From: an uncultured bacterium
GTDB taxonomy: Bacteria; Cyanobacteriota; Vampirovibrionia; Gastranaerophilales; Gastranaerophilaceae
Direction: 5' to 3'
Assembly: GCA_902760645.1 (NCBI GenBank)
Contig: CACWHC010000001.1
Coordinates: forward strand, 62,001-126,000
DNA: 64,000 nucleotides
Of this stretch, positions 6,306 to 21,257 are shown one piece after another (the stretch's first letter is position 1; each line of letters begins with the position of its first letter). Position numbers and translations under genes: made by a program. The notes under the pieces are model-generated. The model ran no database searches, was not told the DNA's origin, and saw nothing but the letters and a program-made list of their open reading frames with translations.

Positions 6306-7067
6306 CTACATATTTTCGCCGTTATTCTGCGGCAAATTCAAACGATAATAAAACTGTTTTATAGCATTTTGAATTGACACAGACTCTCGTGACATTGAAT
6401 TTTGTTCAAGCGTATCATCATAAGGTATCACACCAAGAACTTCCAAATCAAACCTCTTTAGCATTCCATAAACATGCTCTAACGCATTATTATCAACCTT
6501 ATTCAAAATAACTCCCAACTGATTACCTGCAGCATATTTTGCACTAAATTCTTCAATACGTTTTGCCAAATGTGCAGAATCTTCAGTAGGATTTGCAACA
6601 ATAAGTGTAGCATCTATCTGCGTATCAACAAGCTGATTTAGATATTTTAAATCAAATTCGCAGTCAAAAATTACTATATCATACCTGTCGATAAGTTTTT
6701 GAACTGCATAATTAATTTGACCGGTTATAGGACATCTGCAATCTTTTGAACCGACAAACCATGAAACAATCAAATCAACATTCTCATCTAAAGATACAAG
6801 AATATCCTCCATTGCCCATTCTATAAATTCCTGCTTAGACATATTTTCAGGAATACCTGTTTTATATTCATGCTTACCGCTTCTGATACCATATATGGTA
6901 TTTCTAACATCCAGCCCAAAACTGTGCCCAAGTTCCCCTGATAAATCATTATCAAATAATAATATTGATTTCTCAGGAAACATATCTTGAAATATTCTTA
7001 GAAAAGCTTTTGTTATTGTCGTTTTACCGCTTCCGCTTTTCCCTGTTATTGCCAGTTTATATGTCAT
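6306..7067 (-). CDS. CooC/AcsF-like nickel-insertion type ATPase (SIMIBI class)
   Basis: This 253-residue P-loop protein has a deviant Walker A, GKSGSGKTT at residues 9-17, with the signature lysine of MinD/ParA/CooC ATPases. A CxC pair, C110-R-C112-P, lies where CooC maturation factors of Ni-containing CO dehydrogenase/acetyl-CoA synthase bind metal between monomers. Later motifs are IVIFDCEFDL (Walker B region) and VILNKVDNN (base recognition). It overlaps the upstream methyltransferase gene by 11 nt, so the two are translationally coupled. No CODH/ACS gene is in the window, so the client enzyme is unknown. A generic ATPase of the CobQ/MinD family is the alternative. Confidence 0.7.
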   Translation of the reverse strand: MTYKLAITGKSGSGKTTITKAFLRIFQDMFPEKSILLFDNDLSGELGHSFGLDVRNTIYGIRSGKHEYKTGIPENMSKQEFIEWAMEDILVSLDENVDLIVSWFVGSKDCRCPITGQINYAVQKLIDRYDIVIFDCEFDLKYLNQLVDTQIDATLIVANPTEDSAHLAKRIEEFSAKYAAGNQLGVILNKVDNNALEHVYGMLKRFDLEVLGVIPYDDTLEQNSMSRESVSIQNAIKQFYYRLNLPQNNGENM

Positions 7068-8136
7068 TATACCTCTCTTTTAAACTACATGATATTTCTT
7101 TTGTCAGGCTGAATGCCTTTTGGGCAAGCTCAATACTCAAACTTCCCGCACCGCATGATGTTGAAACAAGTGAATTATCTATAATAAGTTTCTCATTAAT
7201 ACCTTTATCAGTCAAATATTTAACAGCAGAATAGAATTTACTTTCAATAATTTTTACATCTGCTTTTTCAAGAGCAACTTTATCTAAAGTCGGGACAACA
7301 CCCCAAACTATCTTGCCGCCATGCAGTAAGAATTTTTCGACATCCTTAGAGTACACACTCAAATTTTTTGCATAGCTGTATGCATCAAGATTTAGCATAT
7401 TCACACCGCTTTCAACAGGGACTTTCCAGTCACACTTACCGCAACAATGAATTGCACTGAAAGCTCCGGCAGACTTTATTGCATCCGATACCTCTTTCAG
7501 CATGCATAAAACATCCTCCTCGGATATTGTTACATATGCAGAAGTACCAAGCTGAGAAATCGAAGGCTCATCAATAAAAATTATAGGCGTAATATCAGGA
7601 TTTGCTTCTTTCATTTTTCTAATCTGCCATAATGCTTTTATTGTAAGGATTTTTTGTATAATCTCTTTTAAAGTATCATCATATATTGCACAACGCCCAT
7701 CTTTATCAACCAACGTAGTAGATAAAGTGAACGGACCTACAATTTGTCCTTTCGCATACTTTGCATTTGCAGCCAATTTTAAAAATTCATTAAATGAAGA
7801 TGAACAGGTGCTTGATATTCCGTATTTTGAAATAATTTCACCGCTATTATCCTCACCAGAAACTATTTTCTCATAATCAACGAAAAAAGTTTCTAAATCA
7901 TCATAAAAAGCATCATAATCAACATCCAAGTAGGATTTACCAACAAAAAACGAAGGCATACCCTCCAAAAATTGGATAATCATGTCTTCGTTTTTTGATA
8001 ATTTTACCATCTGCGGCCAGAAAGGTATTCTGTTAAAATATCTGCCTACAATGGACATTGCATCATTGAGGTTATTATGGGGCATAGAACCGATTGCTAT
8101 ACATTCAAGTTTCAGGTCTTCAAAATTTGCTCCCAT
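7057..8136 (-). CDS. MetE/UROD-superfamily methyltransferase (core MetE-like)
   Basis: This 359-residue TIM-barrel protein resembles the C-terminal catalytic half of cobalamin-independent methionine synthase. The zinc-site pattern is visible: H230-x-C232 in IHCCGKCDW and C328 in STSCGAGS. It lacks the N-terminal half of full MetE, as do core-MetE proteins that take methyl groups from corrinoid proteins. The start at 8136 has GAGGG 5-6 nt upstream; a longer frame to 8196 would overlap rplI. It sits between rplI and a CooC-like ATPase, with folD downstream. Substrate specificity cannot be read from the sequence. Confidence 0.7.
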   Translation of the reverse strand: MGANFEDLKLECIAIGSMPHNNLNDAMSIVGRYFNRIPFWPQMVKLSKNEDMIIQFLEGMPSFFVGKSYLDVDYDAFYDDLETFFVDYEKIVSGEDNSGEIISKYGISSTCSSSFNEFLKLAANAKYAKGQIVGPFTLSTTLVDKDGRCAIYDDTLKEIIQKILTIKALWQIRKMKEANPDITPIIFIDEPSISQLGTSAYVTISEEDVLCMLKEVSDAIKSAGAFSAIHCCGKCDWKVPVESGVNMLNLDAYSYAKNLSVYSKDVEKFLLHGGKIVWGVVPTLDKVALEKADVKIIESKFYSAVKYLTDKGINEKLIIDNSLVSTSCGAGSLSIELAQKAFSLTKEISCSLKERYNDI

Positions 8137-8158
8137 TAAATCCCTCGTTAGCAATAAA

Positions 8159-8662
8159 CTATGCTTCTGCTTCAGTACCTTCAACAACTTCTTCAACAGA
8201 TTCTTTCAATATTTCAGAAGCTGTAACAGTAACTGCTAATTCGCATTTTACTTTTGAAGTTAATTTAATAAGCATTTTATATGAACCAACTTTGTTGATA
8301 GGAGCGTTCAATGAAACATTCTTTCTGTCAACAACGATTCCTGACTGAGCCTGTAATTCTTCAGTCAATTTCTTAGTAGTAATTGTACCGAACAATTTAC
8401 CGGATTCACCTGCTTTTGCAGACAATTTCAATTCAGCAAATTTTTCAATTTTTTCAGCTGTAGCAAGAGCTTCCTGATGAAGTTTTTCTTGTTTTGCTTT
8501 AATTCTTGCAAGATCTTTTTCTCTGTTCTTGATAGCACCTTCAGTAGCTACTTCAGCAGCATTCTGAGGAAGTAAAAAGTTTCTTGCATAACCGTCTTTA
8601 ACGTTTACCATATCACCGGCTTCACCGAGATTTTGAACGTCTTTTTTCAATATAACTTGCAT
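8159..8662 (-). CDS. rplI: 50S ribosomal protein L9
   Basis: The N-terminal domain MQVILKKDVQNLGEAGD with GYARNFLLP is diagnostic of L9, followed by the long connecting helix and the C-terminal domain. At 167 residues it is slightly longer than usual because of an acidic tail (EEVVEGTEAEA). AAGGAG precedes the start. It is the first gene of a minus-strand unit running into the methyltransferase gene 22 nt later. Confidence 0.95.
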   Translation of the reverse strand: MQVILKKDVQNLGEAGDMVNVKDGYARNFLLPQNAAEVATEGAIKNREKDLARIKAKQEKLHQEALATAEKIEKFAELKLSAKAGESGKLFGTITTKKLTEELQAQSGIVVDRKNVSLNAPINKVGSYKMLIKLTSKVKCELAVTVTASEILKESVEEVVEGTEAEA

Positions 8663-8799
8663 TTCATATTCTCCTTTTTCTATTTATATTTCTAACCGTG
8701 AAAAAATATTACAACAAAGAAAACCGTTTGTCGATAGTTTTTTGCCGAATGTTAAGATTAACTACATTGAACAGCAGGTATTTATAACATTTTAAACTA

Positions 8800-9648
8800 T
8801 TACCATTTTAAAGGATAATTTTTTGGAAACTGCCAGCCGTTATTCACAATTTCATACGCACAATATGAACCTACATTGTCGCATTTATCCCAATCACTTC
8901 TGCGTTCATCTGCAGTCCTGTCATGTCCGTCAGGAAGAATTCTTCCATCAGGCATAAAATCGAATACAAAAATATCTTTACCTATCCAATTTGGACGTCT
9001 ATCTACTCCGTTTACATCTATAATGAACCAATGACGCTGATCATTATTCCCGTTCCAAGTCCATCCTTGACGAGATTGCAATTGAACACACGCACCATTA
9101 GTTAAATGCCATACATAATCAAATCCCGGATTATGTGTTAAATAACCGCCTCCTGTAATTTTACCGGCACCGGCAGTTACTGCATCAAATGATTCCGCAT
9201 CTTTGTAGCACGCAATACCTTCCGGGTCAGATCTATGCCAGTCAGTTGGAAGATATTTTGCAAACTCAGGACCGAATAATGTCGTATCAATATACTTTGC
9301 ACCGTCATATCGGGTTTTCATATATGTAGATATTTGCGACGGATCGACATTATCATTATGGGCTTTTAACATTTGAACAGCCTGATTTAATATTGCATAA
9401 TTCTTTTTTAACTGAGTCAGGATAACCTGCTTTTGGTAATTTTGGATTAAACCCGGTAACGTCATTGCCGCAACAACACCGATTATACCAAGGGTTATTA
9501 AAACTTCTGCTAGGGTAAATGCAGCACGACGAGGCTTTGCAGACTTAGCTACGTGCGTAGCACCCTCAGCTAGGGTAAACGCGGCTTTTCTTTTTAGTGA
9601 ACAGTAACCTGTGAACCGTGAACAGTTCTTATCGGTGCTGTCGCACAT
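8800..9648 (-). CDS. type IV pilin-like protein with duplicated signal motif
   Basis: The body is a class III-signal pilin/pseudopilin: a basic stretch, then FTLAEVLITLGIIGVVAAMTLP forming the hydrophobic helix, then a globular domain ending in WQFPKNYPLKW, like the intact pilin near 61 kb. The signal motif occurs twice in frame, AAFTLAEG (F24) and AAFTLAEV (F44), 20 residues apart. The listed ATG at 9648 lies inside an inserted repeat and has no Shine-Dalgarno; the good SD-ATG is at 9818 but its frame is closed. Expression is therefore uncertain, and the gene may be switched off or interrupted. Product, if made: a surface filament subunit exported through the neighbouring pilus machinery. 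Confidence 0.6.
   Translation of the reverse strand: MCDSTDKNCSRFTGYCSLKRKAAFTLAEGATHVAKSAKPRRAAFTLAEVLITLGIIGVVAAMTLPGLIQNYQKQVILTQLKKNYAILNQAVQMLKAHNDNVDPSQISTYMKTRYDGAKYIDTTLFGPEFAKYLPTDWHRSDPEGIACYKDAESFDAVTAGAGKITGGGYLTHNPGFDYVWHLTNGACVQLQSRQGWTWNGNNDQRHWFIIDVNGVDRRPNWIGKDIFVFDFMPDGRILPDGHDRTADERRSDWDKCDNVGSYCAYEIVNNGWQFPKNYPLKW
9507..9585 (-). repeat. 60-bp period duplication of the prepilin signal region
   Basis: The segments 9507-9525 and 9567-9585 differ at only 3 of 19 positions and lie exactly 60 bp apart. They encode the two AAFTLAE motifs. The intervening DNA contains the hairpin GCTACGCACGTAGC. Confidence 0.75.
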
Positions 9649-9798
9649 TTGGGATTGCTTATCAACCCGTAATGATGACGTAAAATAGGCGTAATTCTTT
9701 CATCACCGTGGTTTAAAAAATTCCACGAGCGAAGCATCTCTAAAGGCAGGCTAGCCTGTAAACCCTTACTGCAAGAGGTTTTGCCCCCCCCCCCTAGG
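9594..9798 (-). repeat. pilin-leader repeat element, copy A, with 11-base G tract
   Basis: On the minus strand the element follows an SD-ATG (GGAGG, ATG at 9818) and a few leader codons. It starts with CCTA plus eleven G, contains the palindrome CAGGCTAGCCTG and the hairpin GTGGAATTTTTTAAACCAC, and ends with a segment rich in TGTTCAC and GGTTCAC units. The core 9674-9798 is nearly identical to 18465-18599, and 9601-9646 matches 18014-18059. Frames through it depend on G number: with 11 or 12 G the leader frame stops early, with 13 G it runs about 70 codons. Confidence 0.75.
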
Positions 9799-9898
9799 CT
9801 GAAATTCAATTATAGTCATAATATCCTCCTTTTTTACATATAGTACTATTATAACATATTTTTAAAACATTCGCAAGATGATGCCGATTAAACACGCA

Positions 9899-10720
9899 TT
9901 ATATTAATCCTCTTTTCTTTAATCCGGTTTTAACAAGCCAATTTATCCAGTCTTGCGGAAGTTTAGACACAAGCTCGGCAGCTTTTGCATCGATACCAAC
10001 AGTATATGATGCTTTTGGATTTTCTGACTCTATAACTTTTTTGATGACATTCACAACTTTTTCTACGGATAATCCTCGTTGACCGTTTTTCAAGGCATTA
10101 CGCTTCATATAATCCATCTGCTTTTCATAGGATTTATCTTCTGAAATACTGTCTTTATTAATTTCAATAGATTTTTGCCACAAAGGAGTAGCTATGACAC
10201 CGGGTTTGACCGAAACCACTTTTATCTTGTTACCTGTTTCCAATTCAAGTGCGGTAAATAATATATCAAGCGCTCTTTTAGAAGCACAATATGGAGAAAC
10301 ATACGGGAATATCCCAAAACTTGCCATAGAACTTATATTTATTACTTTTGAGCCGTCCAGTAAATCTAATAACTTCTGAGTAAACCTTAAATGAGAGAAT
10401 GTATTAACCTGAAATTGTTTCTCTAATTTAGACAAAGGCATGTTTTCCATCGGTCCTGCCATAACACACCCTGCAACATTCAGCAGAATATCAATTTTTT
10501 TAACCTGACGCTTGATGAAAATAGCCGCCCCGTCAATAATCGAAGGTTTTTCCATATCTATGAAAAAGGGAATAACATTCGATGAAATTTTTATAAGACT
10601 TCTTTCGTAATCAGGATTTCTGTATCCGGCAAAAATTATATAATCATCTGCCAAACTCTCAACAAGAGCCCTGCCTATACCGGACGTAGCACCGGTAATT
10701 ACGATAACCTTTTTTTCCAT
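9899..10720 (-). CDS. SDR-family NAD(P)-dependent oxidoreductase
   Basis: A classical short-chain dehydrogenase of 273 residues. It has TGATSGIG (8-15) for cofactor binding, NVAG for fold stabilisation, a catalytic Ser in ISSMASF and the Y-x3-K pair in SPYCASKRAL. The tail is like oxidoreductases acting on lipids or retinol-like substrates, but the substrate is not deducible. It starts 11 nt after pilC and is probably cotranscribed with the pilus genes without being an obvious pilus component. Confidence 0.85.
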   Translation of the reverse strand: MEKKVIVITGATSGIGRALVESLADDYIIFAGYRNPDYERSLIKISSNVIPFFIDMEKPSIIDGAAIFIKRQVKKIDILLNVAGCVMAGPMENMPLSKLEKQFQVNTFSHLRFTQKLLDLLDGSKVINISSMASFGIFPYVSPYCASKRALDILFTALELETGNKIKVVSVKPGVIATPLWQKSIEINKDSISEDKSYEKQMDYMKRNALKNGQRGLSVEKVVNVIKKVIESENPKASYTVGIDAKAAELVSKLPQDWINWLVKTGLKKRGLI

Positions 10721-10731
10721 AATACTCTTTT

Positions 10732-11955
10732 CTAGTCTACATAAGATCCGAACAACGGTAAGTACAATGCAAGAGCCAATGTCAATACGATAGAACCGAT
10801 TACGATTAACATCAAAGGCTCAATCATTTTTGTCATTGTATCAACAATATCATCTAATTTTTTATCAATATATCTTGTTGCCTGCAATAACATTTCACCT
10901 AAACGACCTGACTGTTCACCTGTAGCTATCATAAACAGAATCATCTTCGGAACAGCCTCCGTAGAACGCAACGCAACTGAAAGGTGCTGCCCCTGCTGAA
11001 CTAACTCGGTAGCCGACTCAACTTTATCCTTCAAAGTATAATTTGTTAATGTCAAAACAGCTAAGTGCAAACATTCAACAATAGGAACACCCGCATCATA
11101 TGCAACCTGCATTACCGCAACGAAGTTCGCAAAATTTGAAAATTGAACCAAATCCCTCAATAAAGGAATTTCAAGCGAAAACTTATCAATTTTTTTTCTG
11201 CTTGGCGGCCAATTAAATAAATATATAATACCGTATACAACTGAACCCAATAACAACGGTACCAAATACCAAAATTCTTTTAATTTTTTACCAATTTCCA
11301 TTAATGTAGCGGTGATTAACGGCAATTCTTTACCCATACTCTTGAACATATCATCAAATACAGGGAATACGAACATTAACATGACAAGTACAATAAGAAC
11401 CGCCAAACAGATTACGAATGCCGGATACATTAATGTACCGATAACCTTACTCTTAATAGCCTGCTGTTTACCAAGAATTTCCAACAAACGGTCCAGAGTT
11501 TTTTCCAATTCACCGGCATCTTCACCGGCTTTACAAAGACCTATATAAATCTGACCAAACTGTGCAGGATATTTCGCTATGGTATCCGCAAATGTTGAAC
11601 CTGCCATAATTTGTGTTCTTAATTCTCTTGCTACAAGTCTGATTTTAAGTTTTGCAGCATCCTGCTCAATAAACAGTAAAGACTCAATCATAGGAATACC
11701 TGAAGCAGCCAATATTTGAAGGGTTGAAGTAAATTCAATCTTATCACTCAAACCCATGGTCTTCATTTGACCTGTTTTGGTCGTAGCCGCAGCATCCTCT
11801 TTGGCGTCTTTTCCCATACGCTCTTCGTAAATCTTAGTAGGCATAAAGCCGAGTTTTCGGACATTGTCCTTCGCCTCATGGACGTCTTCCGCCTCAACTT
11901 TACCTTTTACAATTTCTTTACCGTCTTTTAATGCTTCGTAATTATATATAGCCAT
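10732..11955 (-). CDS. pilC: type IV pilus inner-membrane platform protein PilC (GspF family)
   Basis: This 407-residue protein has two repeated T2SSF domains with characteristic motifs (FTSTLQILAASGIPMIESL and FVAVMQVAYDAGVPIVECL) and three hydrophobic segments, the last at the extreme C-terminus. It sits in the inner membrane, couples the PilB ATPase to pilin extrusion, and lies 15 nt downstream of pilB, as usual. Confidence 0.93.
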   Translation of the reverse strand: MAIYNYEALKDGKEIVKGKVEAEDVHEAKDNVRKLGFMPTKIYEERMGKDAKEDAAATTKTGQMKTMGLSDKIEFTSTLQILAASGIPMIESLLFIEQDAAKLKIRLVARELRTQIMAGSTFADTIAKYPAQFGQIYIGLCKAGEDAGELEKTLDRLLEILGKQQAIKSKVIGTLMYPAFVICLAVLIVLVMLMFVFPVFDDMFKSMGKELPLITATLMEIGKKLKEFWYLVPLLLGSVVYGIIYLFNWPPSRKKIDKFSLEIPLLRDLVQFSNFANFVAVMQVAYDAGVPIVECLHLAVLTLTNYTLKDKVESATELVQQGQHLSVALRSTEAVPKMILFMIATGEQSGRLGEMLLQATRYIDKKLDDIVDTMTKMIEPLMLIVIGSIVLTLALALYLPLFGSYVD

Positions 11956-11970
11956 AATTCAATATTATTC

Positions 11971-14022
11971 CTATTCATTTACAATACCGAGTACACGAAC
12001 AAATTCATCAATAGTAGTATATCCGTTCACAATATGACCCTTACATGAATTATTCAATGTAACCATACCGTTCTTTACCGCTAAATCTTCAATTTCAATA
12101 TCATGGGCACCTGATGCAATCAATTTTCTGATACCCTTGTTAATTGCCATAATTTCATATACGCCTAAACGACCTTTATAGCCTGAGAAATTACATTTAT
12201 TACATCCGACAGGTCTATATAAAGGCGTTTTCATTAATCTTTCAATTTCTTCTTCGTCAACAGTTATTTTAGAAACTTCTTCCCTTGTAGGATAATATTC
12301 TTCTTTACAATCGTCACACAATCTTCTCACAAGTCTTTGAGCAATTACACCTGACAAAGTGGATGCAACAAGATAATCCTTAGCACCCATTTCTACCAAA
12401 CGTGTAACAGTAGCTGCTGCAGAGTTTGTGTGGACCGTACTTAATACAAGGTGACCGGTAAGTGCCGCTGCAATAGCAATTTCCAAAGTTTCGTAGTCAC
12501 GAATTTCACCGACCAATATAATATCAGGGTCCTGACGTAATATAGCTCTCATACATGAAGCAAACGTGATACCCGCTTTAGCATTAATCTGCGACTGGTT
12601 AATACCCTCTAATTTAATTTCTATCGGGTCTTCAATCGTCGTAATATTAACATCTTCATTATTTAAGCTCTTTAATACAGAATACAGAGTTGTAGTTTTA
12701 CCTGAACCTGTAGGACCCGAAGTAAGAATAATACCGTTCGGACAGGATATCATATTTTTAATCTTATCAATATCTTCTTCTGTACCGCCGACAAGACTAA
12801 TATCTTTATCAGCAGAATTCAATGAAACAGCAGGTGCAAGTACACGGATACAGACCTTCTCTTTACCGGAAACAGGCAAAGTATTAATACGGAAATCAAA
12901 CGACTGATTTTTGTATTTTATAGAGAAAGTACCATCCTGTGGACGTCTATGCTCTGCGATATTCATTCTGGATAATACTTTGAAACGTGATATAACAGAA
13001 GTTTCAACCTTTGACGGAATATCCAATACCTTAGACAGCATACCGTCCTTTCTGTAACGGACAATATAGCCCGCCAGTCTTGGCTCAATATGAATATCGG
13101 AAACATGTGTGTCAATTGCCGTGGTAATAATTTGGTTTACAAATTTTGCAATGGAACCGCTTGAATCTTCAAGTTCTTTATCAACTTGCTGCCACAATGA
13201 TTCCTCAACCTGAAGTGCAGCTGTTTCATCCTGAATGTCTTTAATAATTTTCTGAGTTTCTTTTTTATGCTCAGAAAAGAAGGTATCCATACAAGTCTGA
13301 AACTCGAAATGAGTCATCAACAACTGTTTTGGATTTTGACCTGTTAAATAAATGATTTCTTTTAAAACATCAGGTTTTACGGGTGCAACAACACCAAGTA
13401 CAAGATTTTTACCATCCGATGAAACCGGAACTACCTTATTAGTCTTAATAAAATCTTCAGGCAAAATATTAATAAAAGCAGACTGTTTTGCAAGCTGATC
13501 AGCTGTAACGACATCAAATCCGGTCTGATTATGCAAAACCTCTTTTAATTGTTCAAGAGTAATAAACCCTAATTTGTAAAGCATTGAACCGACGGGAATC
13601 TTTTGTCGTTTACTTTCAGCTAATGCCTGAAGCAACTGTACATCAGTAATATATCCACGTTCAATGAATAATTCACCCAGTTTTGACTGAGGCTGAGATA
13701 CCACATCATTACTTGCAGAAGAAGGCGGCATATCAGTAAGGGATTCCCCTGTAGGCTCAGGTTCAGACTTAGGCATTAAATTGTCAATAAGTTCATCCAA
13801 ATCCTTGTCCGGCACCTGAATAAATTTTATCTGATATTGAAAAGTAACCCGCAATTTTTCACTTATTGTATCCTTATCAGATGCAGAATTAATGGCAACG
13901 AACAAAAAACCGTCTTTTACACTGATAGGAACAAACTTATGTTGTTCCATCAGTGATTTATCGACCTGATTCAAAATCTGTTTATTTATACTGTTTTTTA
14001 ATCTGTTTTGTAGTTCGTTCAT
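11971..14022 (-). CDS. pilB: type IV pilus assembly ATPase PilB (GspE family)
   Basis: At 683 residues it drives pilus extension. An N-terminal MshEN-like region (KLGELFIERGYITDVQLLQAL, then VGSMLYKLGFITLEQL, about 110-170) resembles c-di-GMP-binding modules. The ATPase core follows: Walker A GPTGSGKTTT near residue 436, Asp box IEDPIE, Walker B ILVGEIRD, and a zinc site (CDDC and CNKC, about 570-640). The ATG is preceded by AAGAAG. It acts at the cytoplasmic face with PilC. Confidence 0.95.
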   Translation of the reverse strand: MNELQNRLKNSINKQILNQVDKSLMEQHKFVPISVKDGFLFVAINSASDKDTISEKLRVTFQYQIKFIQVPDKDLDELIDNLMPKSEPEPTGESLTDMPPSSASNDVVSQPQSKLGELFIERGYITDVQLLQALAESKRQKIPVGSMLYKLGFITLEQLKEVLHNQTGFDVVTADQLAKQSAFINILPEDFIKTNKVVPVSSDGKNLVLGVVAPVKPDVLKEIIYLTGQNPKQLLMTHFEFQTCMDTFFSEHKKETQKIIKDIQDETAALQVEESLWQQVDKELEDSSGSIAKFVNQIITTAIDTHVSDIHIEPRLAGYIVRYRKDGMLSKVLDIPSKVETSVISRFKVLSRMNIAEHRRPQDGTFSIKYKNQSFDFRINTLPVSGKEKVCIRVLAPAVSLNSADKDISLVGGTEEDIDKIKNMISCPNGIILTSGPTGSGKTTTLYSVLKSLNNEDVNITTIEDPIEIKLEGINQSQINAKAGITFASCMRAILRQDPDIILVGEIRDYETLEIAIAAALTGHLVLSTVHTNSAAATVTRLVEMGAKDYLVASTLSGVIAQRLVRRLCDDCKEEYYPTREEVSKITVDEEEIERLMKTPLYRPVGCNKCNFSGYKGRLGVYEIMAINKGIRKLIASGAHDIEIEDLAVKNGMVTLNNSCKGHIVNGYTTIDEFVRVLGIVNE

Positions 14023-14101
14023 TGTTCTTCTTATCTGAAAGAGTATTTACATGCCTAATGCCACTATGCAATTATTATTTAATTTATATGAATTGACTTT
14101 A

Positions 14102-15985
14102 CTATAAAGTTGGTCTTTCCATTGCAGTAGCCGGAGCATCATTATCGTTAATAATCTTCGGTGTAATCAAGATAACTAACTCTGTTTTGGTTTTTTCAGT
14201 ACTTGAAGTTCTGAATAAAGTACCAAGTCCAGGAATATCACCTAAGAAAGGTATCTTGCTGACAGATTTAGTTTCATTTTCTTTCATCATACCTGCAATT
14301 ACAAGTGTATCACCATCTTTAATTCTTATATTCTTTAACTCAATATTGTTCTTTCTGAGTAATGTAGCCTGTAAGTCTTCTTCACCTGTTTCAGCATTCT
14401 TAACTTTTACGTCACCTGCTTTTGTTGAATAATCAGGTTTTACATTCAAGTAAACGAATCCATCCGGAGATATGAACGGAGTTACATTGATTTTAAGACC
14501 CATATCATCACCGATTTCGTAAGTTCTTTCTACTGTCGGAACATTAGAATAAGAACCCTGAACAATCTGAGATGTTACGGTTTTTACATAATCTTCAGTC
14601 ATATCAACTGTTGATTCCTGACCGTTAGTAACAAGAACTCTCGGATTAGAAATAGTTCTTGCTTTACCGTTTTTCAACATCAAGCTGAGTGAGTATAACA
14701 ACGTAGTACTACCTGTTGTATAAGTAGGTTTGTCACCAAATAAAGCAATTTTGTTGAAATTAGTACCGGTAGAATCATAATTGAATTTAAAGTGCTTACT
14801 TACAAATGACCATTCATTATTAAATTCTCTTGTACCTGTTTCAGATAATTCTATAATAGAAAATTCAATATATGCCTGAGGCTGACGTTTGTCATTAGCA
14901 GCAATAAATTCCTTAATAAGTTCTACCTGATGCGGAGAACCACCAATCAAATTAATTGTACCTAATTGTGTATAATAAGCAACTGTCAAACCATGCAAGC
15001 CTAAAGGTTCAGCAGAAGTACCACCTGAACCGGAACCGGAACCGCTTCCGCCTGATGTAACTGAACTTGAACAAGCTATAGCACCTTCACCAAGAGTAAT
15101 ACTACTGCCACTACCACCTGAAGAAGAAGATGATGATGATGATGAGTCACTTGCACCACCGGTTACAACACCTGCGGCACCACCTGTTGATTTACCATCA
15201 GGAACATCACCTGTACTTGGCAACAACATACCGCAAATCATTTCAGCCATCTGCTGAGGAGTGGTATGATTTACCTTGAATGAAGTTACGGAAGGTTTTT
15301 TATCAAATTGAGCAATAACTCTGCGTGCAACTGCAACATCATTGTCATTACCAAATATTAATATTTCATTAGTAGCAGGATTTACTGATGCTATATTTGA
15401 ACTTGACAGTCCCGGTTTTTGCATACCGTAAATGTTCTTATTCAAAAAGTTAGCAATTTGAGTCGCATTTATGTATCTGACCGGAACAACAGCCATTTCT
15501 TGTTTGCCAATACTTGAAGAATCCTTTGCATCAGCAACTATAATAGTGTTATCTTGCAATGTATATGTTAAATCAGAAGCTGCCAATACCATATTAAAAG
15601 CAGAATTCAACGGAATATTAACTAAGTCCATTGTAATTTTGCCCTTGCCGCTGCCGCCACCTTCGGAACTGCCAGAGCTGCTATTACCAACATCACCTTT
15701 GAATATAATATTCTTGCCGGCTTTATCAGCAAACATTCTCAAAACTTGTTTTACGTCTGAATCTCTCAAGCTCAAACTTATAGTAGGATTAGTATCAGAT
15801 ATTACCCCTCCTGCAGATTCAAACGAAACTATTGAAGGCTGACTGCCTCTAATTTCAGGCATATAGTCCATGCTATAGCCTAAATCTCCACCAGCGGCGA
15901 ATACCAATGATGAAGAAACCTGTGTTGTTAAAGTAAATGATAACAACATCGTTAATGCCATAAATTTTTTAATCGAATTTCTCAT
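14102..15985 (-). CDS. pilQ: type IV pilus secretin PilQ
   Basis: A signal peptide (about 1-31, ending SSSLVFAAG) leads a 627-residue outer-membrane secretin. Parts in order: secretin/STN-type N domains with ISLSLRDSDVKQVLRMFADKAGKNI, a second N domain, a long Ser/Gly low-complexity linker (about 275-330), and the secretin channel domain with VLVTNGQESTVDM and VTPFISPDGFVYLNVKPD. The last strand region is typical (ELVILITPKII). It forms the pilus exit pore and lies between the PilP-like lipoprotein and pilB. Confidence 0.93.
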   Translation of the reverse strand: MRNSIKKFMALTMLLSFTLTTQVSSSLVFAAGGDLGYSMDYMPEIRGSQPSIVSFESAGGVISDTNPTISLSLRDSDVKQVLRMFADKAGKNIIFKGDVGNSSSGSSEGGGSGKGKITMDLVNIPLNSAFNMVLAASDLTYTLQDNTIIVADAKDSSSIGKQEMAVVPVRYINATQIANFLNKNIYGMQKPGLSSSNIASVNPATNEILIFGNDNDVAVARRVIAQFDKKPSVTSFKVNHTTPQQMAEMICGMLLPSTGDVPDGKSTGGAAGVVTGGASDSSSSSSSSSGGSGSSITLGEGAIACSSSVTSGGSGSGSGSGGTSAEPLGLHGLTVAYYTQLGTINLIGGSPHQVELIKEFIAANDKRQPQAYIEFSIIELSETGTREFNNEWSFVSKHFKFNYDSTGTNFNKIALFGDKPTYTTGSTTLLYSLSLMLKNGKARTISNPRVLVTNGQESTVDMTEDYVKTVTSQIVQGSYSNVPTVERTYEIGDDMGLKINVTPFISPDGFVYLNVKPDYSTKAGDVKVKNAETGEEDLQATLLRKNNIELKNIRIKDGDTLVIAGMMKENETKSVSKIPFLGDIPGLGTLFRTSSTEKTKTELVILITPKIINDNDAPATAMERPTL

Positions 15986-16018
15986 TGCTGCTCCTGCTTA
16001 TCTTCTTATTTAATTACA

Positions 16019-16687
16019 TTACTTTTTATTACCGCCAAATTTAGTAGATAAATTTGCAACAGTATTATAATTTACAAGGTTTCTGCCTTCTTCTACAAGC
16101 TGACCGACCCCTGCTTTATAAACATTTGAACCGACCTGAACTGTGACAACGGATTTACTTATGGAAAGAACTTTATATCCGTTTAAAACGTCACCGGATC
16201 TGACAAAATAATCCAAACCGTCTATATTAAGAATAGCTGACGGGTTATTTTTGTCAAACATTATACCGGAAATTCTTGTCGTAGCCGCCCTTCTTGCGTT
16301 TTCATCAACCGCTTTTGCCGGTGTTTCCAAAGGAGGCAACACATCATACTGTAATCTCTGCTGCGGAATTGATGCTACAGCATTTTTTGCTGATTCGCTC
16401 ATCTCCGGCTTTTCTCCCGGCGGCATAAAAGGATTAGCTCTGCCAACATTATCTACTGATACAGAAACCATCTTATCCATATCAGCATCGTCAGGTATGC
16501 TAATCTCATGAGAATTTGCCTGTTGCTGATCCTGAGATTCATCAGACACCGGAATATCTACTTCCTGCTGAGGAATACTATCCGTCAAATCCTCTGTACC
16601 GCTACCACTTGTACATCCCGAAAGATTTAATGCTACTATAAATGCGAAGGCAATAGTACTACAAATCGCCCAAAATTTCCTTTTCAT
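16019..16687 (-). CDS. PilP-like type IV pilus lipoprotein
   Basis: Starting at the third in-frame ATG (16687, with AGGA upstream) gives a lipoprotein signal with lipobox LSGC, lipidated at C25. A long Gln/Glu/Pro-rich disordered region follows. The C-terminal domain (ISGIMFDKNNPSAILNIDGL to GVGQLVEEG) is a small beta fold like PilP, which links the secretin to the inner-membrane PilNO complex. It lies immediately upstream of pilQ, the expected position. pilM, pilN and pilO are not in this window. Confidence 0.75.
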   Translation of the reverse strand: MKRKFWAICSTIAFAFIVALNLSGCTSGSGTEDLTDSIPQQEVDIPVSDESQDQQQANSHEISIPDDADMDKMVSVSVDNVGRANPFMPPGEKPEMSESAKNAVASIPQQRLQYDVLPPLETPAKAVDENARRAATTRISGIMFDKNNPSAILNIDGLDYFVRSGDVLNGYKVLSISKSVVTVQVGSNVYKAGVGQLVEEGRNLVNYNTVANLSTKFGGNKK

Positions 16688-17009
16688 AAGCATTCCTGTA
16701 ATATTTCCCATACTTTGTTTTATCCACTTCTCTCTTTTTTGTACAAATTACACATTTGTCATTTTGATTATATTAGAATTAATTAATTTGTGTATCAATC
16801 TTTTAGTGTATTTATTTAGAAATTACCACAATAAAACTAATAATATCATACTTTATATAATAACATATATTATAAATTTTGGCAAAATTGTTTAATATAC
16901 AAAGATTTGCGGTATTAATAAAATACATAATTCAGGCTTATTTATTGAAATAATTGAGATAAAACGCATATAAAACCCATGCTTTTATATAAAATTTTAT
17001 TAAGTTATA
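16688..17009. other. AT-rich intergenic region, no feature recognised
   Basis: About 320 bp with no convincing ORF, RNA or repeat. It must hold the promoter of the minus-strand pilus operon, but several AT-rich hexamers are possible and none stands out. Confidence 0.5.
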
Positions 17010-17885
17010 TTAAGATACAACCGGTGTTTGCTCATAATTATTAGTAAAAGTATAAATATATTCCAAAATATCTGCAAAATATTCCAAATCAGCATTTCCG
17101 TTCAAGACTATATCCGACTGATTTCTAAACGGTTTGACATATTTACAGCCCACATCATTCAAATAATTCCAATGCTTAATAGCATTTTCTTCATCCTGAT
17201 TTCTTTCATTGCATGCTCTGGAAATAAATCTTTGTTTACGAATATCATTTTCTGTTTCGACATATATTTTTATATCAAACACATCCTGGACGGTATCATA
17301 CATGGTTGCAATACCTTCTACAACAATAATTTTATTTGATTTTATATCCAAAGCATTCGGAACCGAAACTCCGGTACCATTTGGAAGATACATGGGAGCC
17401 TTTATATTATCACCGTCAGACAAACTCATCAAATCTTTTTTTAATATATCAAGCTGGAAATTAGACGGAGCATCCAAGTCATAGCCTGCATCTCTGAGGT
17501 TATCAAACCCGCCGTATTCTTTTATTTCTTTAGAAATATCGTTAAAATAATTATCCGTACTTAACACTGAAACCGGAAGACTAAATTTTTCAATATCTTT
17601 TTTAATTTCTCTGCAAATGGTTGATTTGCCGGAGGCTGACTCGCCTGTAATACCTATCAATAATCGTTTGGAAGGATTGTCGATTAATCTTCTTGAAAAT
17701 TTACTCGCAAAATTAGGATTAATTCCTCTAAACAGAGGATTTTTACAATGACTGTCATAAGAAAGTATCTGTTTAAATTTCGCCTGCAGATAAAAAACCA
17801 AAAATTCCCTGCCGCTTTTTGAGCTAAAATCAGGCTTTAAAATTTTATCGGCAGATTGTAATTCTTTTTCAATTAATGATTTCAT
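17010..17885 (-). CDS. uridine kinase-like P-loop kinase
   Basis: At 291 residues this is a nucleoside/phosphoribulokinase-family protein. Walker A GITGESASGKST covers residues 79-89, followed by VLSTDNYFND (substrate Asp), APSNFQLDIL, and IVVEGIATMYD, a Walker B strand typical of Udk. The N-terminal extension of about 75 residues is unusual for plain uridine kinase. The start at 17885 (MKSLIEKEL) is preferred over an upstream frame without a ribosome site. Substrate is uncertain; uridine/cytidine is the default inference. Confidence 0.7.
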   Translation of the reverse strand: MKSLIEKELQSADKILKPDFSSKSGREFLVFYLQAKFKQILSYDSHCKNPLFRGINPNFASKFSRRLIDNPSKRLLIGITGESASGKSTICREIKKDIEKFSLPVSVLSTDNYFNDISKEIKEYGGFDNLRDAGYDLDAPSNFQLDILKKDLMSLSDGDNIKAPMYLPNGTGVSVPNALDIKSNKIIVVEGIATMYDTVQDVFDIKIYVETENDIRKQRFISRACNERNQDEENAIKHWNYLNDVGCKYVKPFRNQSDIVLNGNADLEYFADILEYIYTFTNNYEQTPVVS

Positions 17886-18060
17886 TCTTATGATTTCCAA
17901 ACAACAAGTATTTATATAAATAAAGTGATGTTTAGAATAATACACCAGAAATTATTTTTTTGCTAGGTTTTAGGTTAATTGTTAATAATTATTAAAATCA
18001 GGTAATTGCGTGAACAGTAAACCGTGAACTGTGAACAGTTCTTTTCGGTGCTGTCGCACG

Positions 18061-18206
18061 AGTAAGGCTTCTCCCATCGGGAGAACATTTGCGAGAAAAC
18101 TTGTTTTCTCTGCAAATGTTGATGAGGGGTTGAATAAAATTTACCATAATCTGTACGTTTGACCCCTCACCAATTTTTCTAAGTTCACTTCGTTCACTAA
18201 GAAATC
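18061..18206. repeat. block of tandem hairpins inside the composite repeat
   Basis: Four dyads stand side by side: TTCTCCCATCGGGAGAA, ACATTTGCGAGAAAAC with GTTTTCTCTGCAAATGT, GATGAGGGGT with ACCCCTCACC, and TTCTAAGTTCAC with a GTTCACTAAGAA partner. The density of palindromes is far above the surrounding sequence. Confidence 0.6.
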
Positions 18207-18212
18207 TTTTTC

Positions 18213-18401
18213 ATGTCATTGCGAGCGAAAGCGAAGCAATCCAGCCGTTTGGTTATTCATGTTTTATAAATATTTACTTCCTTACTCATTTTTTAAATTT
18301 TTTGGATTGTCTTATATTTTTATAATTATGGCTTCTAAATAGCTGGATTACGTCGTCGGGCAAGCCTTTGCCCTCCTCGTAATGACTCCTCGTAATGACA
18401 T
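18213..18401. mobile_element. MITE-like inverted-repeat element, CATTGCGAG type
   Basis: ATGTCATTGCGAG...GCAATCCAGC at 18213-18245 is mirrored by GCTGGATTACGTC...CGTAATGACAT at 18342-18401. This arm sequence is a well-known dispersed palindrome in many bacterial genomes. No coding potential is seen. It is nested inside the larger composite. Confidence 0.65.
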
Positions 18402-18732
18402 GGTTTAATTAATCGTGTGGCAGCACCGATACGAACTGTTCACTGTTTACTGGTCCCTGTTCGGGATGACGTAAAATAGGCGTAATTCTTTCATCACCGT
18501 GGTTTAAAAAATCCCACGAGCGAAGCATCTCTAAAGGCAGGCTAGCCTGCAAATCCTGTAAGCCCTTACTGCGAGAGGTTCTTACCCCCCCCCCCTAGGT
18601 GAAAACTTAGTCATAATAATAACCTCCGCTATTTTTGTAATACATTATCATTATACATTATTTTTTGAATTTTTCAAGGGGGTGTCCTGGTTCAATACAT
18701 ATTAGATTAAGCTGCATTTTCTATTATCCTAT

Positions 18733-18764
18733 AAAAATACAGGGCGGTATAATTACCGCCCTGT
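18733..18764 (-). terminator. terminator of rpsA
   Basis: An 11-bp perfect stem ACAGGGCGGTA/TACCGCCCTGT (18739-18764) with a 4-nt loop is followed on the minus strand by ATTTTT. Confidence 0.9.
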
Positions 18765-18787
18765 CTTTAGTATTTAACATTGAAAAC

Positions 18788-19861
18788 TTACGCTTCTTTA
18801 TTAATATCTTTAACACTCAATGCAATTCTGTGTTCTTGCGGAGTGAATTTCTTAATAAGAACTTCAACGCTGTCACCAACTTTGAATTCGTTGAACGGAT
18901 TAACGTTTTCGTCACTCATTTCAGAAACAGGCAACAATGCTTCTACACCTGGGAAAATGTTAATAAATGCACCAAAACCTGTAACTTTATTAACAGTACC
19001 CGTAATTACCTGACCCTCTTCAAATTGACCTTCAATTTGCTGCCAAGGATCTTCGCCCATTCTCTTTAATGAAAGTGAAATTCTCTTTAATTCGCTGTCA
19101 ATCTTAATTATTTTAACTTCCAATGTTTCACCAAGAGATATTACATCTGACGGATGTTTAATTCTCTGCCAAGAAATTTCGGAAATAGGAAGCAAGCCGT
19201 CAATACCGTTGATATCGATGAATGCACCAAAATCAGCAATTCTTACTACTTCACCTTTAACTACCTGATCTTCTTCAAGTGTTGAAAGAATATTATCAAC
19301 AACCTGATCTCTTTGTTCTGCAACAGCTAATCTCTGAGAAAGAATTAATTTGTTCTTCTTAGGATCAGCTTCAAGAACTTTAACTTCAATCTTAGTATCA
19401 ATAAGACCGTCAAACGGCTGACCTGTTCTCAACTGGCTTGAAGGAATGAAACCTTTCAAATCAGCAACGTCAACCAAAACACCGCCCTTAACAACAGAAA
19501 CAACTTTTGCCAAAATTGTATCACCCTGAACTTTTGCATCATTCAACTGTGCCCAAGCCTGAGCAAATGCCAATCTCTTCAATGAAAGAAGCATACCCTC
19601 TTCATCATTTTCTTCTTTTAATACATAGAATTCTTTTTCATCACCGACTTCAAGAACATTTTCACCTTCCATAGAAGATAATTCTCTGTTTGGCAAGAAA
19701 GCTTCTGTCTTTGCACCACGAACACTTACCAAATATCCGTCGTTATCTTTTTTCATAACAGTACCTTCTACGATATCTGCTACAGTGTATGATTTTGAAA
19801 AAGATTCTTCCAGTAATTTTTCAAATTCATCCAAATTGGTTTTTCCTAATGTTGTTGTCAT
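18788..19861 (-). CDS. rpsA: 30S ribosomal protein S1
   Basis: At 357 residues it has four S1 OB-fold repeats, beginning roughly at 25, 110, 190 and 275. The last two carry the clearest cores (RIADFGAFIDINGIDGLLP and KVTGFGAFINIFPGVEALLP). Six-domain S1 of proteobacteria is longer; short versions occur in Gram-positives and cyanobacteria. It binds mRNA at the ribosome. AAGGAG precedes the ATG. It follows ispH by 21 nt, a linkage also seen in clostridia, where the two may be fused. Confidence 0.93.
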   Translation of the reverse strand: MTTTLGKTNLDEFEKLLEESFSKSYTVADIVEGTVMKKDNDGYLVSVRGAKTEAFLPNRELSSMEGENVLEVGDEKEFYVLKEENDEEGMLLSLKRLAFAQAWAQLNDAKVQGDTILAKVVSVVKGGVLVDVADLKGFIPSSQLRTGQPFDGLIDTKIEVKVLEADPKKNKLILSQRLAVAEQRDQVVDNILSTLEEDQVVKGEVVRIADFGAFIDINGIDGLLPISEISWQRIKHPSDVISLGETLEVKIIKIDSELKRISLSLKRMGEDPWQQIEGQFEEGQVITGTVNKVTGFGAFINIFPGVEALLPVSEMSDENVNPFNEFKVGDSVEVLIKKFTPQEHRIALSVKDINKEA

Positions 19862-19882
19862 TTTTATTTTCTCCTTTTCTTT

Positions 19883-20743
19883 TTATTTTATTTTTTCTAT
19901 AACTTTTTCGATTACATTTTGCGGAGTGGAAGCACCCGCAGTAATTGATATTTTTTCAGAACCTGCAATAATATCTTTGTAATTATCAAGTTCACTGTCA
20001 TTTTCTATATGAATAGTATTAGTAATATTTTTCAGAATTTCAGCCAAATGAGTAGTATTTGCACTTTTCTTTGAACCCACAACTATCATAAGGTCACTTT
20101 CTTTAGCCAATTCTTTTGCCTCAGACTGACGCATAGCGGTACTTTGGCATATTGTATTTGCGACATGCAATTCTTTGGAAATGGAAGTCAAATATTCCAC
20201 AATCGGATTAAGAGTTTTCAGCATCTGAGTCGTCTGAACAACTATTCCTACTTTTTTATGAGCCTTAATATCATTTTCATAAGCTTTTAACTGTTCAACA
20301 GAACTTGCAACCACAACATTATCACTCCATAATTTTGCATTTGCGTTTATGCCGATTACTTCAGGGTGTTCTGATTTGCCGACAATAACAACATAATAAT
20401 CATCTTTTGCAAGCTCAATTGCCTTTTGCTGAACCTTTTTAACGTCAGGGCATGTCAAATCAACAAGCTCAAATCCTGCATTACGGATTTTTTCAATCAC
20501 TTCAGGACTTTCACCATGACTTCTTACAACACAAATACCGTCACCCTTTTCGGGAACTTCCGTAATGGTTTTTATACCCAAAGCCTCCAATTCATTAATA
20601 ACATCAGTATTATGAATAAGCTCACCCAATACAAAAACATTTCTGTCAGGGTTTTCTGATTTTAATTTTTTTGCAGTTTCAACGGCTCTTTTTACACCGT
20701 AACAAAATCCTGCGAACTTGGCTAGTTTTATATTTTTAGGCAA
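19883..20743 (-). CDS. ispH: 4-hydroxy-3-methylbut-2-enyl diphosphate reductase IspH (LytB)
   Basis: This enzyme performs the last step of the MEP isoprenoid pathway, using a [4Fe-4S] cluster. The three cluster cysteines are in AGFCYGVKRA (C14), VDLTCPDVKK and TICQSTAMRQ. Other conserved parts are VRSHGESP and the C-terminal ITAGASTPQNVI. Its 286-residue length is typical. The start is TTG at 20743, immediately after an in-frame stop, with only a weak ribosome site. First gene of an ispH-rpsA pair. Confidence 0.93.
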   Translation of the reverse strand: MPKNIKLAKFAGFCYGVKRAVETAKKLKSENPDRNVFVLGELIHNTDVINELEALGIKTITEVPEKGDGICVVRSHGESPEVIEKIRNAGFELVDLTCPDVKKVQQKAIELAKDDYYVVIVGKSEHPEVIGINANAKLWSDNVVVASSVEQLKAYENDIKAHKKVGIVVQTTQMLKTLNPIVEYLTSISKELHVANTICQSTAMRQSEAKELAKESDLMIVVGSKKSANTTHLAEILKNITNTIHIENDSELDNYKDIIAGSEKISITAGASTPQNVIEKVIEKIK

Positions 20744-20843
20744 CTAAAATTGTCTTCTTTCTGTTGGACTCGCAAATATAATTTGCTGTAAAAAGATTAC
20801 AACACAAACAAAAGAAAATAGCAAGGTATATAAGATAATTCAA

Positions 20844-21257
20844 CTATGCCTGAGTTTTGTCTGCGTGTTTTCTCAAGAAAGAGTTAGCAATACCGTCACC
20901 AATCGCACCGATTGCCAATCCTGCACCAAGTTTCAGCGCTGCAACAACAGGAATACCAATCCTTATACCGTTTACAAAAGCGGTTCTTCTTACTGCTCTG
21001 AAATCAGCTCTTTGTAATGGTTTTGATTTTGTGTAATCATCGATAGATTTTGCAATAGAATCAAAAACAGGGATAAACATACGTTTCAAATCTGCCGATT
21101 TCGATACTTTTGAAGCATCATAAAGAAACTTTGACGCAAAACCTGCACCTGCAAGTCCGCCAACATATTTACCTATATTAGATTTTTTATAATCATTGCC
21201 TTGACTTGTTTTTTGAGGGGTCATTATTCTTAATGAACTAATCGGATCTATTGCCAT
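20844..21257 (-). CDS. small hydrophobic-patch protein of unknown function
   Basis: The 137-residue product starts at 21257, where AAGGAG is well placed; an upstream ATG at 21326 has none. It begins MAIDPISSLRI, has a Gly/Ala segment (KYVGGLAGAGFASKFLYDAS), and a second alanine/glycine-rich hydrophobic stretch near the C-terminus (IPVVAALKLGAGLAIGAIG) that could touch a membrane. No family recognised. Confidence 0.6.
   Translation of the reverse strand: MAIDPISSLRIMTPQKTSQGNDYKKSNIGKYVGGLAGAGFASKFLYDASKVSKSADLKRMFIPVFDSIAKSIDDYTKSKPLQRADFRAVRRTAFVNGIRIGIPVVAALKLGAGLAIGAIGDGIANSFLRKHADKTQA

Follow-up and report, generated by a model that had tools for sequence, protein, structure and literature searches.

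The polyG and polyC tracts of Campylobacter and Neisseria sit in diverse genes. These tracts are contingency loci, and C. jejuni NCTC11168 has 29 polyG/C loci with at least seven repeats (PMC4965091; PMC5084427). In the sortase-dependent pilus loci of Bifidobacterium breve UCC2003 a G tract separates the pilin ORF from a short translated ORF 5' of it; the reference genome is out of frame, the default state is OFF, and a change of the G count joins the two ORFs and leads to pili (PMC9187656). Small repeats within genes have been described as well: Rickettsia palindromic elements lie in frame inside ORFs and are translated (reviewed in PMC10969869).

The locus at 18.6 kb of the window, i.e., of the whole stretch of 64,000 nucleotides that was analyzed, belongs to a gene family that can be compared with all of these systems. 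Like the B. breve loci, its genes have a G tract near the start, an out-of-frame reference and, as judged from sequence, OFF as the default. However, B. breve has two loci with LPXTG/Sec pilins and represents an unrelated phylum, while here one genome contains 31 N-methyl (type IV-like) pilin genes, and the G tract is situated inside the prepilin leader, in contrast to B. breve, where the first of the two ORFs has a Sec signal. With the Campylobacter and Neisseria loci the family shares the many loci per genome and the probable intragenic switching of the frame (PMC4965091; PMC5084427), but every long G run occupies one position of one gene family. The core repeat found in some of the leaders resembles the Rickettsia palindromic elements in its behavior, being in frame and translated; unlike them, the repeats build up in the leader of a single gene family. 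The likeness to type IV pilins and pseudopilins (PF07963) consists of the FTLAEVLITLGIIGVVAAMTLP segment, nearby machinery genes, and a prepilin peptidase in the genome, but the leaders are as long as 170 residues and contain, in front of the cleavage site, a run of Gly and sequence derived from repeats. No paper describing a G-run pilin family was found in the literature searched, and the family is apparently an undescribed and notable variant of G-tract contingency loci.

Both strands of the genome that contains the window (1.96 Mb, 29 contigs) were searched for G runs of at least nine nucleotides. Thirty-one distinct runs with lengths of G9-G13 were found, whereas a first-order Markov estimate predicts approximately one run of this size (G or C), and thus a chance origin was ruled out. 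All 31 runs share one context, namely, a Shine-Dalgarno (SD) sequence, an ATG (in one case TTG), 17-27 nt (five to nine codons), the G run, and a conserved 3' flank that resembles (T)AAGAACCTCTCGCAGTAAGGGTTTACAGG. A TATAAT is located within 60 nt of the start of 30 of the 31 genes. In some members the flank leads almost directly into TTTACATTAGCAGAAGTATTGATTAC (FTLAEVLIT), the start of the pilin (L068, L072, L073, L074, L084, L086, L088, L095), and in the remaining members the two are separated by repeat modules. The common context and the flanks that run nearly straight into the pilin therefore show that SD, ATG, CCTA and G run natively form the 5' end of the genes of a pilin-like family. The earlier note on this DNA had taken the SD-ATG for the flank of an insertion, a view to be given up if the SD-ATG proved to be part of the repeated unit, and this is what the 31 shared 5' ends reveal. 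A prepilin peptidase is encoded in the genome (PF01478 at C11:21864-22259), and three of five open-phase proteins tried passed PF07963. In total the genome contains 51 PF07963 (N-methyl) matches, many of which are directly behind G runs; about half of the N-methyl genes have a G run in front of them. As roughly half of the matches are not preceded by a G run, the genome seems to combine switched pilins with constant ones.

The influence of the G count, as derived from the assembly, was analyzed by changing it in silico by one in either direction. For 26 of the 31 members one G count modulo 3 opens an unbroken ORF of 250-400 codons, which leads from the ATG into an FTLAEVLITLG pilin. As assembled, five of these 26 genes are in frame, while the G count is too high by one in 16 and too low by one in five. 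Stop codons were counted in the 18 members in which run and pilin are more than 20 codons apart. The open phase contains no stop in 1267 leader codons, whereas the other two phases contain 80 and 123. Judged from these counts, the frame is held open through the inserted repeats by selection, which speaks for the importance of translating the pilin from the G-run ATG. None of the 21 OFF genes of this genome has an ATG in the pilin frame upstream of the run, and only one has an SD-preceded start downstream of it, so an alternative in-frame start that would make the G count irrelevant was ruled out here. In these in silico frames the length of an intragenic homopolymer sets the reading frame, as is characteristic for SSR contingency loci. 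Near-identical copies differ in tract length (G9-G13 in this genome, G9-G15 overall), and it also differs in three of four ortholog pairs between species (10/11, 11/10, 10/11), which have similar but likewise changed flanks on both sides and were represented by one genome per species. A systematic miscall of homopolymers is an unlikely reason for the out-of-frame state, because the sign of the offset is opposite in different genomes.

We consider it probable that the 18.6 kb locus is a decayed member of a G-tract-switched pilin-like family, the intact members of which undergo phase variation with OFF as the default. Gain or loss of Gs probably switches each gene on or off. Translation of an intact member would begin at the SD-ATG and proceed across the G tract, which would encode Gly-Gly-Gly in the leader, and the pilin body would be reached only when the number of Gs is right modulo 3. 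Slippage during replication would flip each gene ON or OFF independently, as at contingency loci, and a single G separates most members from ON. Both the tract and the repeats behind it lie in the leader, which the prepilin peptidase would cut off, and the mature pilin, which may serve in surface pili, need not change. Two observations run counter to this explanation, i.e., ON is rarer than a random phase would predict, and the direction of the OFF state is consistent within some genomes. Random slippage alone is thus insufficient, and one would have to add either selection that favors OFF as the default or a preference for a certain tract length.

At 18.6 kb the -10 box TATAAT (TATAATGATAATG, 18650-18655) and the SD sequence AGCGGAGG (18623-18630) precede the ATG (18612-18614); all features of the window described here are on the minus strand. 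From 18614 onward the minus strand reads ATG ACT AAG TTT TCA CCT A, followed by G11 (18585-18595), the conserved 30-nt flank TAAGAACCTCTCGCAGTAAGGGCTTACAGG (18555-18584, VRTSRSKGLQ in the open phase), and the 93-nt core repeat (18465-18557, DLQASLPLEMLRSWDFLNHGDERITPILRH in the open phase), which is an insertion in the leader. The tract is out of frame; with G12, 68 codons would be open before a stop, i.e., a remnant ORF of 68 amino acids without a pilin body (18409-18614). An arm of a second repeat follows at about 18406-18456, inverted with respect to another arm at 18010-18059, where the retained sequence of the pilin gene stops. The earlier note had correctly recognized the pilin-like SD-ATG, now seen to be the 5' end common to the pilin genes, and the absence of the body. 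The two inverted arms belong to a repeat other than the core, and the core of the note (18465-18599), although the match to the 9.7 kb copy stands, shrinks to 18465-18557. No FTLAE/N-methyl coding sequence was found behind the G run before the next gene at 17945, and the copy, which lacks a body, does not match PF07963. The region 18010-18460 has the appearance of a MITE-like unit of about 450 nt with 50-nt inverted arms (GTGAACAGT...GTGCTGTCGCAC), and single arms also occur in other leaders. An Rfam search of positions 7000-21000 of the window yielded no match above the gathering score.

The neighboring genes served as synteny markers, upstream a gene for an S1-domain protein (rpsA-like, 18788-19861) and downstream a uridine kinase-like gene (PRK, 17010-17945). 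In a sister species (G012) the gap between these two genes contains a complete G-run pilin gene (L216) with a G10 tract, which ends with ...NWEFKDDYPWK and a stop codon. The sequence 3' of it aligns with the window from about 17996 (94.7% over 207 nt). The intact ortholog indicates that the 18.6 kb copy has lost its body: most likely, as judged from this alignment, a G-run pilin was once present, and its body was lost between the repeat arm at 18010 and the 3' end of the gene. The deletion would have extended from the end of the inserted repeat to approximately the old stop codon, leaving behind a dead 5' cassette. Misassembly is an unlikely cause of the missing body, because the order of the neighbors is the same in the sister species and the 3' flank aligns so well. 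The rpsA-like and uridine kinase-like genes also adjoin in two further sister species (G002, G004), where the gap is empty of a pilin. The breakpoint at 18.6 kb adjoins the repeat arm, and this single event is suggestive of a tie between arm and deletion. The locus itself is a dead member of the family and of modest interest.

The core at 18.6 kb is, as had been noted before, nearly identical to that of a second member at 9.7 kb and has the same orientation (18465-18557 versus 9674-9766, 97% identity over 93 nt). The latter member has an SD sequence (9829-9825), an ATG (9819-9817), a G11 tract (9784-9794), and a pilin body (8800-9648) with PF07963 at residues 40-63 (27.9 bits, cut-off 21.2). 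The body cannot be reached from the G-run ATG in any G phase, since the frame of the leader is interrupted inside the repeats. The member is adjoined by pilus/T2SS-type machinery (10732-15985), which comprises T2SSF (10732-11955), the T2SSE ATPase (11971-14022), and a secretin (14102-15985), and thus the window encodes assembly machinery for type IV pilin-like proteins. Both copies of the window are among the five of 31 members without any open phase. The body is absent at 18.6 kb and in L077, its start is deleted in L090, and it has been retained behind a broken leader frame at 9.7 kb and in L087.

The two copies had originally been interpreted as independent insertions of an element with a preference for pilin starts that promotes decay. 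The genomic search proposed in that context revealed 15 longer core copies, 11 of them directly behind a G run and four elsewhere. This distribution, the three G-run members in which the body is missing or N-terminally truncated, and the deletion end next to the repeat arm would fit a mobile repeat that inserted twice and promoted gene loss. However, we regard this explanation as extremely improbable. All 11 leader copies, in 11 of the 31 genes, occupy a single leader site in a single reading frame (DLQASLPLEMLRSWDFLNHG...), so independent insertions are not required and copying of a 5' cassette is suggested as the better explanation; neither boundaries that exclude the SD-ATG nor independent target sites, the marks of a mobile element, were seen. 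Furthermore, SD-ATG and G run occur without the core in 20 of the 31 members, which rules out an insertion element that carries or targets the SD-ATG, and they also occur in other genera with unrelated leader sequences. The body is open in most of the core-bearing members and intact behind the core in several (L070, L082, L089, L091, L093, L094), and from the damaged members (18.6 kb, L077, L090) a deletion-promoting effect of the core is only weakly suggested. Tolerance is a simpler reason than targeting for the build-up of repeats, because the leader is the part that the prepilin peptidase would remove. Several members (L069, L071, L075, L083, L085, and 9480-9590 of the window) contain another leader repeat, GGTGCTACGCACGTAGCTCAGTCTGCAAAGCCTCGTCGTGC, with a second copy of the FTLAE motif (FTLAEGATHVAQSAKPRRAAFTLAEV), which results in two possible cleavage sites.

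The SD-ATG-G9 design was surveyed in 146 genomes of the order, including 40 genera of the window's family. It is present in 57 genomes, all of which belong to this Gastranaerophilales-type family (12 of the 40 genera), and in none of 22 genomes of six sister families. When 84,980 species genomes were scanned for SD-Gn-FTLAE, at least 109 stretches were retrieved, and the named records among the matches listed are Gastranaerophilales, 'Melainabacteria', Scatousia, and a cyanobacterial MAG, the others being uncultured bacteria. A sister species contains 57 pattern matches. In every search the control with the reversed pattern gave almost no matches. In all 80 distinct further genes among the matches listed, from about 29 Gastranaerophilales genomes, one phase opens the gene. 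Nine of the 80 are in phase as assembled (p = 8e-6 versus one third; genome-weighted 15%); when the genomes studied in detail are included, the count is 21 of 145, whereby genes within one genome are not independent. In one Scatousia genome 24 of 26 genes are one G too long, and in 18 a stop follows 5 nt past the run.

Both the offset by one base and the conservation of the stop show a regularity beyond that predicted for random switching, and for this reason programmed slippage has to be considered, although we think it unlikely. The one-base-off state would then be the normal genotype, and some transcripts or ribosomes would shift at the G run, yielding a little pilin per gene. This would be in agreement with the out-of-frame default of about 85% of the genes, the sign of which is consistent within some genomes, and with the stop between run and pilin, which occurs in the assembled frame of 66 of 71 OFF genes versus 43 of 71 in the other off frame (among the matches listed). 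It would also fit one genome (G011) with a default of mostly G13 and TAA directly after it, and another (G021), for which 33 of the 37 observations of the tract, with some loci counted twice, gave G11. However, shifts of both signs (OFF-1 and OFF+1) would be needed, some genes are in frame in the assembly, a fixed slippery motif other than the G run was not seen, and the B. breve precedent argued for DNA replication slippage (PMC9187656).

The latter genome (G021, genus g10 of the same family; L138-L166) exhibits a split form, in which most G-run ORFs are separate leaders of 16 codons. A G11-12 leader ORF is present at 27 of 30 loci, with CCTCC exactly 39 nt past the run in 27 of 27; the hairpin CCGTGCCAANNGACACGG before a T-rich sequence and the pilin's own SD-ATG follow. 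In the consensus fold CCTCCG pairs with the pilin's CGGAGG. The arrangement suggests a regulatory leader in this genome. Extended to the whole family, the G-run ORF would be a regulatory upstream ORF that controls the pilin gene by leader-peptide attenuation, and the fused forms would be derived. We hold this to be very unlikely, because in the window's genome the OFF genes, with the one exception in 21, lack a separate SD-ATG in the pilin frame, the open frame crosses the G tract and the inserts without stops, and even in the split form compensatory change is confined to two pairs of the fold, neither of them in the CCTCC-SD pairing. It is conceivable, albeit doubtful, that the Gastranaerophilales family has a dispersed pilin repertoire, the normal genotype of which is exactly one base out of frame, and that expression depends on programmed slippage or on a leader switch at the G run (with leader ORF and terminator-like hairpin in one genus), a scheme based on leaders of about G11 and not on classical random phase variation.

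If phase variation by changes of the G count is right, little-studied and mostly uncultured gut relatives of cyanobacteria would have very large sets of G-tract-switched surface genes, and strong cell-to-cell variation of pili would be predicted in gut populations. It would also explain why automatic annotation would call most G-run genes pseudogenes or choose wrong start codons. Two further observations were made. One genome (G014; L104, L115, L124) contains dozens of G-run modules, many of them at contig ends, which are followed by repeated peptide modules (GGALGSKGSQGADFALEDKGALG). In the window's genome, G-run genes are co-oriented within a contig (C1, C4, C5, C7, C9, C14, C26), as if they were aligned with the direction of replication.
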